Part shown: positions 15,743 through 19,810 of the stretch, piece by piece
Layout of the letters: each line of letters opens with the position of its first letter
How positions within the stretch are numbered: the stretch's first letter is position 1
From: an uncultured Prevotellaceae bacterium
GTDB lineage: Bacteria > Bacteroidota > Bacteroidia > Bacteroidales > Muribaculaceae
DNA: 59,589 nt
Direction: 5' to 3'
NCBI GenBank assembly: GCA_900320245.1
Contig: ONRP01000012.1
Location: 1 to 59,589, forward strand
The notes under the pieces: model-generated
Databases searched by the model: none
The model's input: only the letters and a program-made list of their open reading frames with translations
Told to the model about the DNA's origin: nothing
Position numbers and translations under genes: made by a program

Positions 15743-17608
15743 ATGGAGTATGATATATTCATAAGTTATTCTAGGGATGACCAAGGCCAAGTCGATACCT
15801 TTGTCCAGCAGTTGGAGGCTGCAGGGTATAGGGTGTGGATTGACAAGACTGGCATCTATTCCGGAACAGGATTCAAGGCGGTTCTTGTTCAGGCTATTGA
15901 AAATTCAGAGATCTTCCTTTTCTTCTCTTCCAAGGCTGCCAATGCTTCGTCATGGACAGCCAAAGAGATTGCGATTGCCGTCGACCGGCAAAAGAAGATT
16001 ATTCCCATCAAATTAGACTCTACTCGTTATAACCCTGATGTGGAATTCGACCTCATCAATTTGGACTATGTTGATTATACCAACAAATCTACTCGTGACC
16101 AAGAGTTAGACAAGTTAATGCGTTCTCTTGAGAGGTTATTGCCGCCCCGCCCTCCGAAACCGAAGGAACTTAAGGAACCAAAGGATCCTCAGAAACCGAA
16201 GGAGCCAAATGAACCAAAGGACCCTCAGAAACCGAAGGGGCCTACGAAGCCAAAGGAAGAAATAGAGGGAAACTGGTTTAGCGACTTTATAAAGAACCAT
16301 CTTGGATGGGCCATCACCGTGGCGACAGTGGCATTGCTGCTGATTGTCGGTGTGCCCCTGTACTGTTCAAGAATTGACAGTAATTTATCTCCGGCAGAAC
16401 GTCAATTAAGAATTGTGGAGCAATACACAAAAGCAGCCGAGCAAGGCGATGCCGAGGCACAATACAATTTGGGCGTTTGCTACGAAAAGGGCGAAGGAGT
16501 TCCCCAGAATTACGAAGAAGCCGCAAAGTGGTACATGAAAGCCGCTGAGCAGGGCCATGCAAATGCTCAGAACAATTTGGGCCGTTGTTACTATGTTGGT
16601 AATGGTGTTCGCCAGAATCACGAAGAAGCGGTGAAGTGGTACCGGAAAGCAGCAGAGCAAGGTCTTGCCGATGCCCAGGATAATTTAGGCCAATGTTACC
16701 AAAAAGGTGAAGGTGTGCCCGAGGATGACAAGGAAGCCGTGAAGTGGTACCGGAAAGCCGCTGAACAAGGTTATGCCAAGGCACAATATCATTTGGGCTA
16801 CTGCTACTCTTGGAGGGAAGGGGTCCCCCGCGATGAAAAAGAAGCGGTGAAATGGTACAGGAAAGCCGCTGAGCAAGGCTATGCCTGGGCGCAATACCGT
16901 TTGGCCAACAGTTATTGTATTGGACTAGGAGTAACAAAAGATATAGAGGAGGGCGAGAAGTTGTACCGGAAAGCGGCTAAGCAAGGTCTTGCTGAGGCAC
17001 AGTTTAGTTTGGGCTATGAATACTTTTGTGGTAAAGTATTCAAAAGTGATATCCATGGAGGACTGAAGTGGATGAGGAAGGCAGCTGAACAGGGTTATAG
17101 CCACGCACAATACGTTATAGGAAGAATCTATTATGATGGTGAAGGAGTCACAAGAGATATTAATGAGGGGCTGAAATGGTTGAACAAAGCAGCCGAGCAA
17201 AGCAATCTCGATGCACAGTACAAATTGGGCAAAAGTTACTATATGGGTGATGGTGTCACCCAGAATTATCAAGAAGCCATTAAGTGGTTCCGTAAAGGCG
17301 CTGAACAGGATGGTGGCATGTCGCAATACTATTTGGGCCGTTGCTATGAGTATGGCTATGGAGTAAACCAGGATTACAATAAGGCTGTAAGTTGGTACAA
17401 AAAAGCAGCCGAGCATTACTACTGTGATGAAGGGCAATACGCTTTGGGCCGTTGCTACGAGTATGGCTATGGAGTAGAAAAAGACAAGGATAAAGCCTTG
17501 GAATGGTACAAGAAAGCCGCCAAACGAGATAATAAGGACGCCGTGAATGCTGTCAAGCGCTTGTCTCCATCAGACGCTGTTAACGACGCAAAGGAGAGTG
17601 AAAAATAA
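15743..17608 (+). CDS. TIR domain - transmembrane - Sel1 repeat protein
   Basis: 621 residues. Residues 1-130 are a TIR domain (YDIFISYSRDD, GYRVWIDKTGI). Glu75 in SSWTAKEIAIAV sits where NAD-cleaving TIR enzymes have their catalytic Glu, so NADase activity is possible. Residues 134-172 form a Pro/Lys-rich linker with a 12-residue unit repeated twice (EPKDPQKPKEPN). A membrane helix follows (about 188-207). From about 225 to the end are ten Sel1-type repeats (pattern NLGVCYEKGEGV...AAKWYMKAAEQG), which usually bind partner proteins. The TIR would be cytoplasmic and the repeats extracytoplasmic. The start at 15743 fits the promoter and the TIR N-terminus. A DKNYY lipoprotein gene follows 8 bp later. 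Immune, signalling or envelope-stress roles are all possible; no other defence gene is nearby. Confidence 0.85.
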   Translation: MEYDIFISYSRDDQGQVDTFVQQLEAAGYRVWIDKTGIYSGTGFKAVLVQAIENSEIFLFFSSKAANASSWTAKEIAIAVDRQKKIIPIKLDSTRYNPDVEFDLINLDYVDYTNKSTRDQELDKLMRSLERLLPPRPPKPKELKEPKDPQKPKEPNEPKDPQKPKGPTKPKEEIEGNWFSDFIKNHLGWAITVATVALLLIVGVPLYCSRIDSNLSPAERQLRIVEQYTKAAEQGDAEAQYNLGVCYEKGEGVPQNYEEAAKWYMKAAEQGHANAQNNLGRCYYVGNGVRQNHEEAVKWYRKAAEQGLADAQDNLGQCYQKGEGVPEDDKEAVKWYRKAAEQGYAKAQYHLGYCYSWREGVPRDEKEAVKWYRKAAEQGYAWAQYRLANSYCIGLGVTKDIEEGEKLYRKAAKQGLAEAQFSLGYEYFCGKVFKSDIHGGLKWMRKAAEQGYSHAQYVIGRIYYDGEGVTRDINEGLKWLNKAAEQSNLDAQYKLGKSYYMGDGVTQNYQEAIKWFRKGAEQDGGMSQYYLGRCYEYGYGVNQDYNKAVSWYKKAAEHYYCDEGQYALGRCYEYGYGVEKDKDKALEWYKKAAKRDNKDAVNAVKRLSPSDAVNDAKESEK

Positions 17609-18384: not shown

Positions 18385-18392
18385 TACCTTTG
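18385..18392 (+). promoter_or_regulatory. -7 element of metK
   Basis: TACCTTTG matches TAnnTTTG. Transcription from here would give a leader of about 145 nt before the metK ATG at 18542. The upstream -33 box is poor. Confidence 0.55.
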
Positions 18393-18422
18393 CAGCCACA
18401 TTTTTAAGTAACAGATACTAAC

Positions 18423-18472
18423 AGTGGACAAATTTGGCTGCTTGCAACCACTTGAAAAAATGCTAAAACTGC
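18423..18472 (+). promoter_or_regulatory. SAM-II-like riboswitch aptamer upstream of metK
   Basis: Conserved SAM-II blocks appear in order: AATTT (18431-18435), TTGCAA (18442-18447), an A-rich loop TTGAAAAAAT (18452-18461) and GCTAAAA (18462-18468). P1 can form from AGTGG (18423-18427) with CCACT (18448-18452). The pseudoknot P2 can form from TTGC (18442-18445) with GCTA (18462-18465), including the U-U juxtaposition seen in known SAM-II structures, and is extended by GC (18437-18438) with GC (18471-18472). metK makes S-adenosylmethionine, so feedback control fits. The element ends about 70 nt before the start codon, further than is usual for translational SAM-II switches; a hairpin with a T tract lies between. 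Confidence 0.7.
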
Positions 18473-18505
18473 GATAATCAACGACTTTATCGGTTTCTTT
18501 TAGCG

Positions 18506-18528
18506 TTCTTGTTCCACAAGGATTTTTT
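18506..18528 (+). terminator. possible attenuator hairpin before metK
   Basis: TTCTTGT (18506-18512) pairs with ACAAGGA (18516-18522) around TCC, followed by TTTTTT. It lies just 13 nt before the metK ATG. Immediately upstream, TTTTAGC (18498-18504) is complementary to the aptamer's GCTAAAA (18462-18468), so an alternative fold that excludes the pseudoknot is possible. Confidence 0.5.
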
Positions 18529-18541
18529 AATTTTTGGTACA

Positions 18542-19810
18542 ATGAACAGTAAGAACAATTTTCTTTTCACGTCGGAGAGCGTGTCTGAAGGGCACCCCGA
18601 CAAGGTCGCTGACCAGATCAGCGACGCTATCCTTGACAAGTTTCTCGCCTTTGACCCCCAGGCCCATGTAGCCTGTGAGACGATGGTGACCACCGGCCAG
18701 GTGATCATTGCTGGCGAGGTAACCACCGATGTCTACATCGACTTACAGCGCACGGCGCGCGAGATGATTGAGAAAATCGGCTACACCAAGAGCGAATACC
18801 AGTTTGACGCCAACTCGTGCGGCATCCTCAACAGCGTGCACGAGCAGAGTGGTGACATCAAGCAGGGTGTCGACAGGGCCGACGACAACGAGGCCGACCA
18901 GGGCGCCGGCGACCAGGGCATGATGTTTGGCTTTGCCTGCAACGAGACGCCCAACTATATGCCGTTGACGCTCGACCTGGCCCACGCCCTGATGCGTGAA
19001 CTGGCCGACATCCGCCACAACCATTTGGAACTGATGCCCTACCTGCGCCCCGACAGCAAGGCCCAGGTGACCGTCGAGTATGACGGTGAGACCCGCCGTC
19101 CCGTGCATGTGGACACCATCGTGGTGAGCACCCAGCACGACGAGGATGTGGACCGCGAGCGCATCGAGCGTGATGTGAAGGAGATTCTTATTCCCCGCAC
19201 GCTGAAGCACTTCAGCGAGGACATCCGTGCAATGGTCGACGACAAGACCAATTACAAGGTCAACCCGACGGGCAAGTTCGTCATCGGAGGCCCTCATGGC
19301 GACACCGGCCTCACCGGCCGCAAGATCATCGTGGACACCTACGGCGGACGCGGAGCCCACGGCGGTGGCGCCTTCAGCGGCAAGGACCCCAGCAAGGTGG
19401 ACCGCAGCGCTGCCTATGCCTGCCGCCACATCGCCAAGAACGTGGTCGCTGCGGGCATCGCCGACGAGGTGCTGGTGCAGGTGGCCTACGCTATCGGTGT
19501 TGCTGAGCCGGTCAGTTTCAACATCAACACCTACGGCACGAGTCATGTGGACATGAGCGACGCCGAGATTGCCGAGATGCTCAAGGGCATGTTCGACATG
19601 CGTCCCAAGGCTATCATCGAGCGCCTGAAACTGCTGCAACCCATGTACACCGAGGCTGCTGCCTATGGCCACATGGGGCGCAAGTATGAGTTCAAGGTGA
19701 AAAAGTTTGAGTCGCTCTACAACGAAACCCGCGAGGTGGAGGTGGAACTCTTCACTTGGGAGAAACTGAACATGACCGAGACGCTGCGCAATGCGTTTGG
19801 GTTGAATTGA
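18542..19810 (+). CDS. metK: S-adenosylmethionine synthetase
   Basis: 422 residues. It makes SAM from methionine and ATP. Family signatures: [20 protein letters not shown] near the N-terminus, the methionine/ATP-site block [17 protein letters not shown], and [20 protein letters not shown] near residue 270. The start at 18542 ([17 protein letters not shown]) is the conserved one; an upstream in-frame ATG at 18509 lies inside the leader hairpin and is unlikely. A SAM-II-like aptamer precedes it. Confidence 0.96.

Follow-up and report, generated by a model that had tools for sequence, protein, structure and literature searches.

The metK leader in the window (the whole stretch of 59,589 nucleotides analysed here) contains a SAM-II aptamer followed by an expression platform which, in the interpretation that we favour with moderate confidence, turns the gene off at high SAM, mainly at the level of translation, through an exchange among three RNA strands and the trapping of the start codon. 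Comparison of the sequences suggests that the hiding of the start codon by this swap of partners, and not a stop of transcription, would be the main mode of action. The case rests on conservation among related leaders and not on the single sequence of the window; when the window leader is set against its own aptamer alone, the anti-aptamer pairing is not significant (p 0.12).

In the absence of SAM, the segment 18498–18517 would fold back on the aptamer in two places, its UUUUAGCGUU pairing with AAUGCUAAAA and its UCCAC with GUGGA of P1, and this pairing would keep the segment off the start codon. In its presence, the pseudoknot and P1 would be held together and the downstream strand would be freed; the liberated GUUCUUGU could then pair with ACAAUGAAC, and a hairpin would close over the AUG. 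We infer that SAM is bound, that control runs in this direction, and that what holds for the relatives holds for the window as well. The elements of the leader are as follows.

18385–18392, + strand: TAnnTTTG-type box TACCTTTG, read from the sequence
18418–18476, + strand: SAM-II aptamer (RF01726, 62.3 bits, gathering score 44)
18424–18428, + strand: P1 5' strand GUGGA, of which 18424–18427 pair with CCAC 18448–18451 in the aptamer
18424–18428, + strand: the same P1 strand GUGGA with its putative alternative partner UCCAC 18513–18517, or anti-P1 (sequence and folding)
18433–18438, + strand: UUUGGC, 5' strand of the pseudoknot helix, able to pair with GCUAAA 18462–18467 (read from the sequence)
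18459–18468, + strand: AAUGCUAAAA, 3' (pseudoknot) strand of the aptamer and anti-pseudoknot target (sequence, alignment, RNAalifold)
18472–18492, + strand: predicted apical hairpin CGAUAA/UUAUCG, enclosed by the anti-pseudoknot helix (folding)
18498–18507, + strand: anti-pseudoknot strand UUUUAGCGUU (95.1% of cells paired, n = 41; RNAalifold; 86 of 93 leaders)
18505–18517, + strand: putative switching strand GUUCUUGUUCCAC, with the aptamer or the start-codon region as partner (folding, comparison)
18506–18528, + strand: hairpin (18506–18522) and T6 (18523–18528) pointed out in the earlier note, a weak terminator-like element overlapping the start-codon hairpin (−4.3 to −5.1 kcal/mol; 66.0% of cells)
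18517–18536, + strand: predicted apical part of the start-codon hairpin, CAAGGAUU 18517–18524 with AAUUUUUG 18529–18536, loop UUUU (folding)
18539–18547, + strand: ACAAUGAAC, start-codon side of the predicted sequestering helix, with partner GUUCUUGU 18505–18512 and U18543 bulged (folding)
18542–19810, + strand: metK, S-adenosylmethionine synthetase, 422 aa (ORF; Pfam PF00438, PF02772, PF02773)

The SAM-II Aptamer and Its Genetic Surroundings

A covariance-model search with RF01726 returned a full-length match at 18418–18476 (+ strand), scoring 62.3 bits against a gathering score of 44, and this match is the only one in the genome to which the window belongs. The P1 pairs are present in the model alignment, and the UUUGGC/GCUAAA pseudoknot was read from the sequence. 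On every feature tested (the model score, the P1 hairpin together with the GCUAAA pseudoknot, and metK downstream, identified by PF00438, PF02772 and PF02773), the metK leader is a member of SAM-II, an already known kind of aptamer, and presumably binds SAM. The earlier note was thus right to place a SAM-II element in front of metK. The model that it had named, RF00521 (SAM_alpha), is a related SAM-II model that shares the GCUAAA core; it gave 20.2 bits on the same leader, under its cut-off of 36, and the matching model is RF01726.

Upstream of the aptamer, TACCTTTG (18385–18392) is a putative Bacteroidota-type −7 promoter box, and the transcript probably starts near 18398–18400. TAnnTTTG precedes the aptamer in 82 of 94 leaders of the genus and in 84 of 95 others, both being raw counts. 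The region directly 5' of the metK leader encodes a DKNYY-family protein (PF13644; 17614–18315, + strand), and further upstream a TIR domain (PF13676) is fused with about ten Sel1 repeats (15743–17605, + strand) in a protein with a possible role in signalling or defence.

Distribution of the Leaders and Distance to the Start Codon

RF01726 matches were present in 95 of 101 genomes of the window's genus, among them all 48 of the 48 with a completeness of at least 90% and a contamination of at most 5%; they were also found in 197 of 295 genomes sampled across the order and in 63 of 395 sampled across the phylum. All 95 loci of the genus, 46 from the order and 29 from the phylum were taken, together with 80 named records, and the final collection comprised 94, 46, 28 and 21 leaders, respectively. 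The order and phylum loci are mostly the best-scoring matches of their searches, and some loci of the phylum draw fall in the window's own order. L013 and L062 (of L001–L170) were left out since a pattern search gave each of them two candidate cores, and L127 and L156 did not enter the platform tests because of their insufficient length. Identical leaders were merged before testing (89 became 81 distinct ones for the strand-swap test). Two groups of leaders were defined by the presence or absence of GGAAA ahead of the ATG and not by a tree; on a MetK tree, this state changes eight times. The alignments A1 (41 rows) and A2 (31 rows) contain no spacers above 85 nt, no duplicates and none of the 5 of 94 leaders that lack the anti-pseudoknot word described below.

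The GCTAAAA strand of the window lies at 18462–18468 and the ATG at 18542, a gap of 73 nt. This distance is ordinary, because leaders of the genus have a median gap of 71.5 nt and the 94 leaders outside it one of 76 nt (range 6 to 261 nt); the view of the earlier note that so distal a platform is unusual did not hold. It had been founded on the premise that SAM-II elements usually overlap the ribosome-binding site, a generalization with which both the 76-nt median and the literature disagree: in their available text, Corbino et al. (2005, PMC1273637), with Bacteroides thetaiotaomicron already among their entries, and Barrick and Breaker (2007, PMC2258182) describe terminators downstream of SAM-II as frequent. 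With GCTAAAA ending at 18468 and the ATG at 18542, direct occlusion of the start is not seen in the window.

Several leaders depart from the common arrangement. In L127 the metK ATG directly adjoins the pseudoknot strand (GCTAAAATG), a direct-occlusion version inside the genus, and L156, with a gap of 6 nt, is a direct-occlusion version inside the family. Most of L132–L153, all from the genus, score only about 44–52 bits, and in their aptamers GUGGA of P1 and AUUUG lie about 3 nt closer together; they are still located 5' of metK and carry the same kind of platform. L134 and L140 possess the aptamer variant GTGGGGATTTGTG and a short, 53-nt leader without the anti-pseudoknot word. The genome G183 has two SAM-II copies (L168 and L169) with near-identical aptamers and platforms, one before metK and the other, L168, which has no metK start, before a gene whose translation looks metH-like by eye; it seems that the switch was copied or relocated as a whole. 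Among the named records listed, the aptamers of Paramuribaculum and Duncaniella appeared closest by eye, which we note only as a lead.

The Anti-Pseudoknot Strand

The earlier note had recognized a TTTTAGC complementary to the pseudoknot strand GCTAAAA. This complement is real (18498–18504), and it grows to 10 pairs formed by AATGCTAAAA (18459–18468) with TTTTAGCGTT (18498–18507). Among 20000 dinucleotide shuffles of 18469–18541, pairing of the 7-mer arose in 3066 and that of the 10-mer in 230, so that chance readily yields the shorter match but seldom the longer one. The word TTAGC(A/G)TT, which is able to re-pair the aptamer's AAUGCUAAA, is carried by 86 of the 93 genus leaders, compared with 0.64 expected from shuffles; it follows GCTAAAA at a median distance of 33 nt, and at 20–45 nt in 84 of the 86. 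That a distal platform can re-pair the pseudoknot strand is hence supported, and this capacity is conserved in the genus.

The AAUGCUAAAA/UUUUAGCGUU helix, including its apical hairpin, has a predicted stability of −12.5 kcal/mol. It is paired in 95.1% of cells in the window's group (n = 41) and in 94.1% in the other group, is returned in the RNAalifold consensus of the window's group, and is kept in the window and the 41 aligned leaders with the exception of the two innermost pairs. Covariation is almost absent from this helix because both of its strands are nearly invariant, so that it is conservation that speaks here.

A Helix over the Start Codon

A second complement, directed to the metK start, begins at the end of the anti-pseudoknot strand and continues just past it. 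In the GGAAAAUG group, GC(A/G)UUUUUCCA pairs with UGGAAAAAUG through 10 pairs that include the AUG; 99.4% of cells are paired (n = 31) and there are eight two-sided changes, values that none of 500 shuffles reached. RNAalifold returned the same helix for this group unprompted, and the lengths of the U-run and the A-run are equal in 36 of its 38 leaders. In the window's group, GUUCAU.. and ..AUGAAC are the usual partners, with 83.2% of cells paired (n = 41; reached by 10 of 500 shuffles); covariation of the helix in these 41 leaders does not rise above that of shuffles (186 of 500 reach the score), and the RNAalifold consensus of this group does not return it.

For 81 distinct leaders from both groups, the native strands pair with a mean of −10.99 kcal/mol, against −8.23 kcal/mol for swapped strands; none of 20000 partner permutations, which ignore descent, reached the native mean, nor did any inside each group. 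Sequence by sequence, pairing with the start exceeded that of 95% of shuffles in 53 of 81 leaders in one test and 48 of 91 in another, and 80 of the 91 distinct leaders of the genus had a value of −9 kcal/mol or lower. The pairing of the window, in which one base of the AUG (U18543) is bulged, was equalled by 1% and 3% of shuffles in the two tests. Five well-supported independent contrasts on the MetK tree comprise three concordant, no discordant and two without a difference (sign test p 0.25). The start-codon helix is therefore present in most leaders of the genus and shows compensatory changes in the GGAAAAUG group. The covariation among related metK leaders to which the earlier note had looked was found for this helix in that group, and hardly at all for the anti-pseudoknot helix.

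Predicted Switching

As a stand-in for the bound state, P1 was kept and the pseudoknot strands were reserved, the folds being nested and free of tertiary or kinetic effects. Under this model, the AUG of the GGAAAAUG group is unpaired with a mean probability of 0.44 in the free and of 0.02 in the bound-like fold, and 33 of the 38 leaders have a start region that opens further in the free state, while no leader has one that opens less; access to the AUG is thus predicted to be lost in the bound-like fold of this group. For leaders without GGAAA, the corresponding probabilities are 0.37 and 0.24, with 20 of 53 leaders more open when free and three less so. In the window itself they are 0.40 and 0.37, hardly any predicted switch, because its free optimum accommodates both a 7-bp anti-pseudoknot helix and the start-codon hairpin. 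This optimum lies at −30.9 kcal/mol, the version with the 10-bp anti-pseudoknot helix at −29.6 kcal/mol, and the full alternative fold with anti-P1 at −25.3 kcal/mol, 5.6 kcal/mol worse than the optimum. A platform that could sequester the start codon is widespread in the genus, is predicted to switch in the GGAAAAUG group, and shows little predicted switching in the window.

Platforms beyond the Genus

Outside the genus, 52 of 92 distinct platforms re-pair their own aptamer to a degree reached by at most 5 of 100 shuffles, compared with 4 of 92 coding stretches and 7 of 92 upstream stretches of equal length; inside the genus, the same test yields 33 of 91 platforms against 1 of 91 and 9 of 91, respectively. 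The mean for native non-genus aptamer–platform pairs is −20.2 kcal/mol and that for swapped pairs −16.9 kcal/mol, with none of 20000 permutations reaching the native value, and none within the GAGG and GUGG types either, in a comparison that is uncorrected for descent. By a loose sorting, 42 of the 52 re-pairing strands cover the 5' half of the aptamer only and 10 extend to the GCUAAA strand as well. Pairing with the start region at p ≤ 0.05 was found in 24 of 92 leaders outside the genus, which is above chance, versus 48 of 91 within it.

Platform types among the window's relatives, those of its own genus included, comprise the GGAAAAUG type, AUUCAUUUU plus a T run, and the L127 type. In the four named leaders L177, L179, L188 and L191, the 3' arm of a terminator, GATTTGAC, repeats the aptamer's own strand; the terminator-like GTCAAATC..GATTTGAC with its T run has arms that complement or copy that aptamer strand. 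This looks like an antiterminator/terminator exchange in other Bacteroidota.

Transcriptional Attenuation and Other Readings of the Leader

The earlier note had proposed transcriptional attenuation instead of masking of the ribosome-binding site. SAM would free 18505–18517 to form a CUUGU/ACAAG hairpin that, together with T6, halts RNA polymerase 13 nt before the ATG, and the strand held by the aptamer would be the antiterminator. We consider this unlikely for the window. The hairpin (18506–18522) and the six Ts (18523–18528), which end 13 nt 5' of the ATG, do exist as described, and a 7-bp hairpin with T6 turns up in 176 of 20000 shuffles. Among the leaders of the window's group, the hairpin exceeds shuffles both in cells paired (reached by 2 of 500) and in its covariation score (5 of 500, set against 186 of 500 for the start-codon helix), and it has seven two-sided changes (36 of 500); during transcription, this short hairpin would precede the start-codon hairpin, and terminators of proteobacterial SAM-II elements are described in the available text of PMC1273637, PMC2258182 and PMC9373788. 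The stem, however, is weak (−4.3 kcal/mol, or −5.1 kcal/mol in a slightly longer form), and a scan of the window leader for terminators with at least three G-C pairs found none, so that the G+C-containing stem with a T run that marks an intrinsic terminator was not recovered. Its pairs are formed in 66.0% of cells (n = 41), one C-G pair in only 12 of 41 leaders, against values of 83.2% in the case of the start-codon helix and 95.1% in that of the anti-pseudoknot helix; versions slid by 1 to 3 columns attain covariation values up to 0.088, against 0.049 for the hairpin itself, and most of them equal or surpass it. The T run measures 6, 5 and 4 in the similar leaders L001, L102 and L123. In the bound-like fold of the window, the start-codon hairpin reaches −23.1 to −23.4 kcal/mol and the T6 hairpin −19.0 kcal/mol, about 4 kcal/mol worse, and the loop of the longer hairpin consists of four Ts of the T6 run, with CAAGGAUU/AAUUUUUG as the stem beside them. 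Of 91 distinct leaders of the genus, 17, including the window (−5.1 kcal/mol), have a T-tailed hairpin at −5 kcal/mol or better. Clearer ones, fed by the strand that corresponds to 18505–18517, are found in relatives: eight carry GC(A/G)UUCAUUUU and a matching arm in a long AU-rich stem with a T run (−8.5 to −9.6 kcal/mol), and L100 has one too; L121 and L010 possess strong ones without the anti-pseudoknot word. Because of the covariation of the T6 hairpin (5 of 500) and these T-tailed hairpins in 17 of 91 leaders, attenuation is plausible in some relatives and, with a lower probability, in the window.

The small change in AUG access in the window (0.40 to 0.37) would also agree with a degenerate platform, in which a constitutive start-codon hairpin lowers metK translation and SAM acts weakly or via RNA stability; we judge this improbable, as the window and the 41 aligned leaders retain the anti-pseudoknot helix, bar its two innermost pairs. 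Least probable of all, in our view, is that the downstream complements reflect chance, or shared descent without function. The near absence of covariation from the nearly invariant strands of the anti-pseudoknot helix and the non-independence of related genomes would fit this explanation, but it has to contend with the 52 of 92 non-genus platforms that re-pair their own aptamers (coding stretches, 4 of 92; upstream stretches, 7 of 92) and with the failure of all 20000 partner permutations to match the native set. Translational control through trapping of the start codon thus remains the reading that we prefer.

Relation to Known SAM-II Systems and Implications

The window resembles the SAM-II long-loop element RF01726 of Bacteroidetes and marine sequences (Weinberg et al. 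2010, PMC2864571) in aptamer sequence and fold, in its Bacteroidota host and in the SAM synthesis gene downstream; there is no difference in the aptamer, and an expression platform of the window's type was not found in the available text of that report. According to the accessible portions of Scheuer et al. (2022, PMC9373788), Sinorhizobium meliloti has a predicted transcription termination at metZ and translation control at metA, and effects of the platform away from the aptamer are a shared trait; these alphaproteobacterial switches concern other genes and are Shine-Dalgarno based, and a start-codon antisense strand that doubles as an anti-aptamer strand was not found in those portions. The metX SAM-II element, as far as the text of PMC10907184 was available, shares the pseudoknot aptamer but acts by direct occlusion, with its ribosome-binding site inside the pseudoknot, whereas 73 nt separate GCTAAAA from the ATG in the window. 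In the open-licence literature, insofar as its text was available, we found neither a description of a SAM-II platform that traps the start codon nor an account of the mode of SAM-II action in Bacteroidota; likewise, a SAM-II result was not found in the available text of an RNA-seq analysis of transcription-terminating riboswitches in Bacteroides (PMC12121620).

Bacteroidota initiate translation without Shine-Dalgarno sequences, and structure around the start codon tunes initiation, as stated in the available text of Baez et al. (2019, PMC6847099); a platform that exchanges partners at the start codon would suit the phylum for this reason. The start-codon trap offers a concrete and testable answer to the question of how SAM-II may act where there is no Shine-Dalgarno sequence to mask. 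The outputs are labile in the genus because T-tailed hairpins occur in 17 of 91 leaders, their state changes 13 times on the MetK tree, and L127 has its ATG at the pseudoknot strand. We tentatively entertain the possibility, without holding it to be the probable case, that SAM-II leaders of the Bacteroidota share one design, in which a downstream strand co-evolves with and re-pairs its own aptamer, and lineages wire this strand to different outputs, in one genus and before one gene: a start-codon trap, terminator-like hairpins, or direct occlusion. If this is true, these leaders would represent a natural series of interconverting expression platforms in a phylum that initiates translation without Shine-Dalgarno sequences, and the spread of outputs among close relatives before a single gene would make the evolution of expression platforms directly testable.
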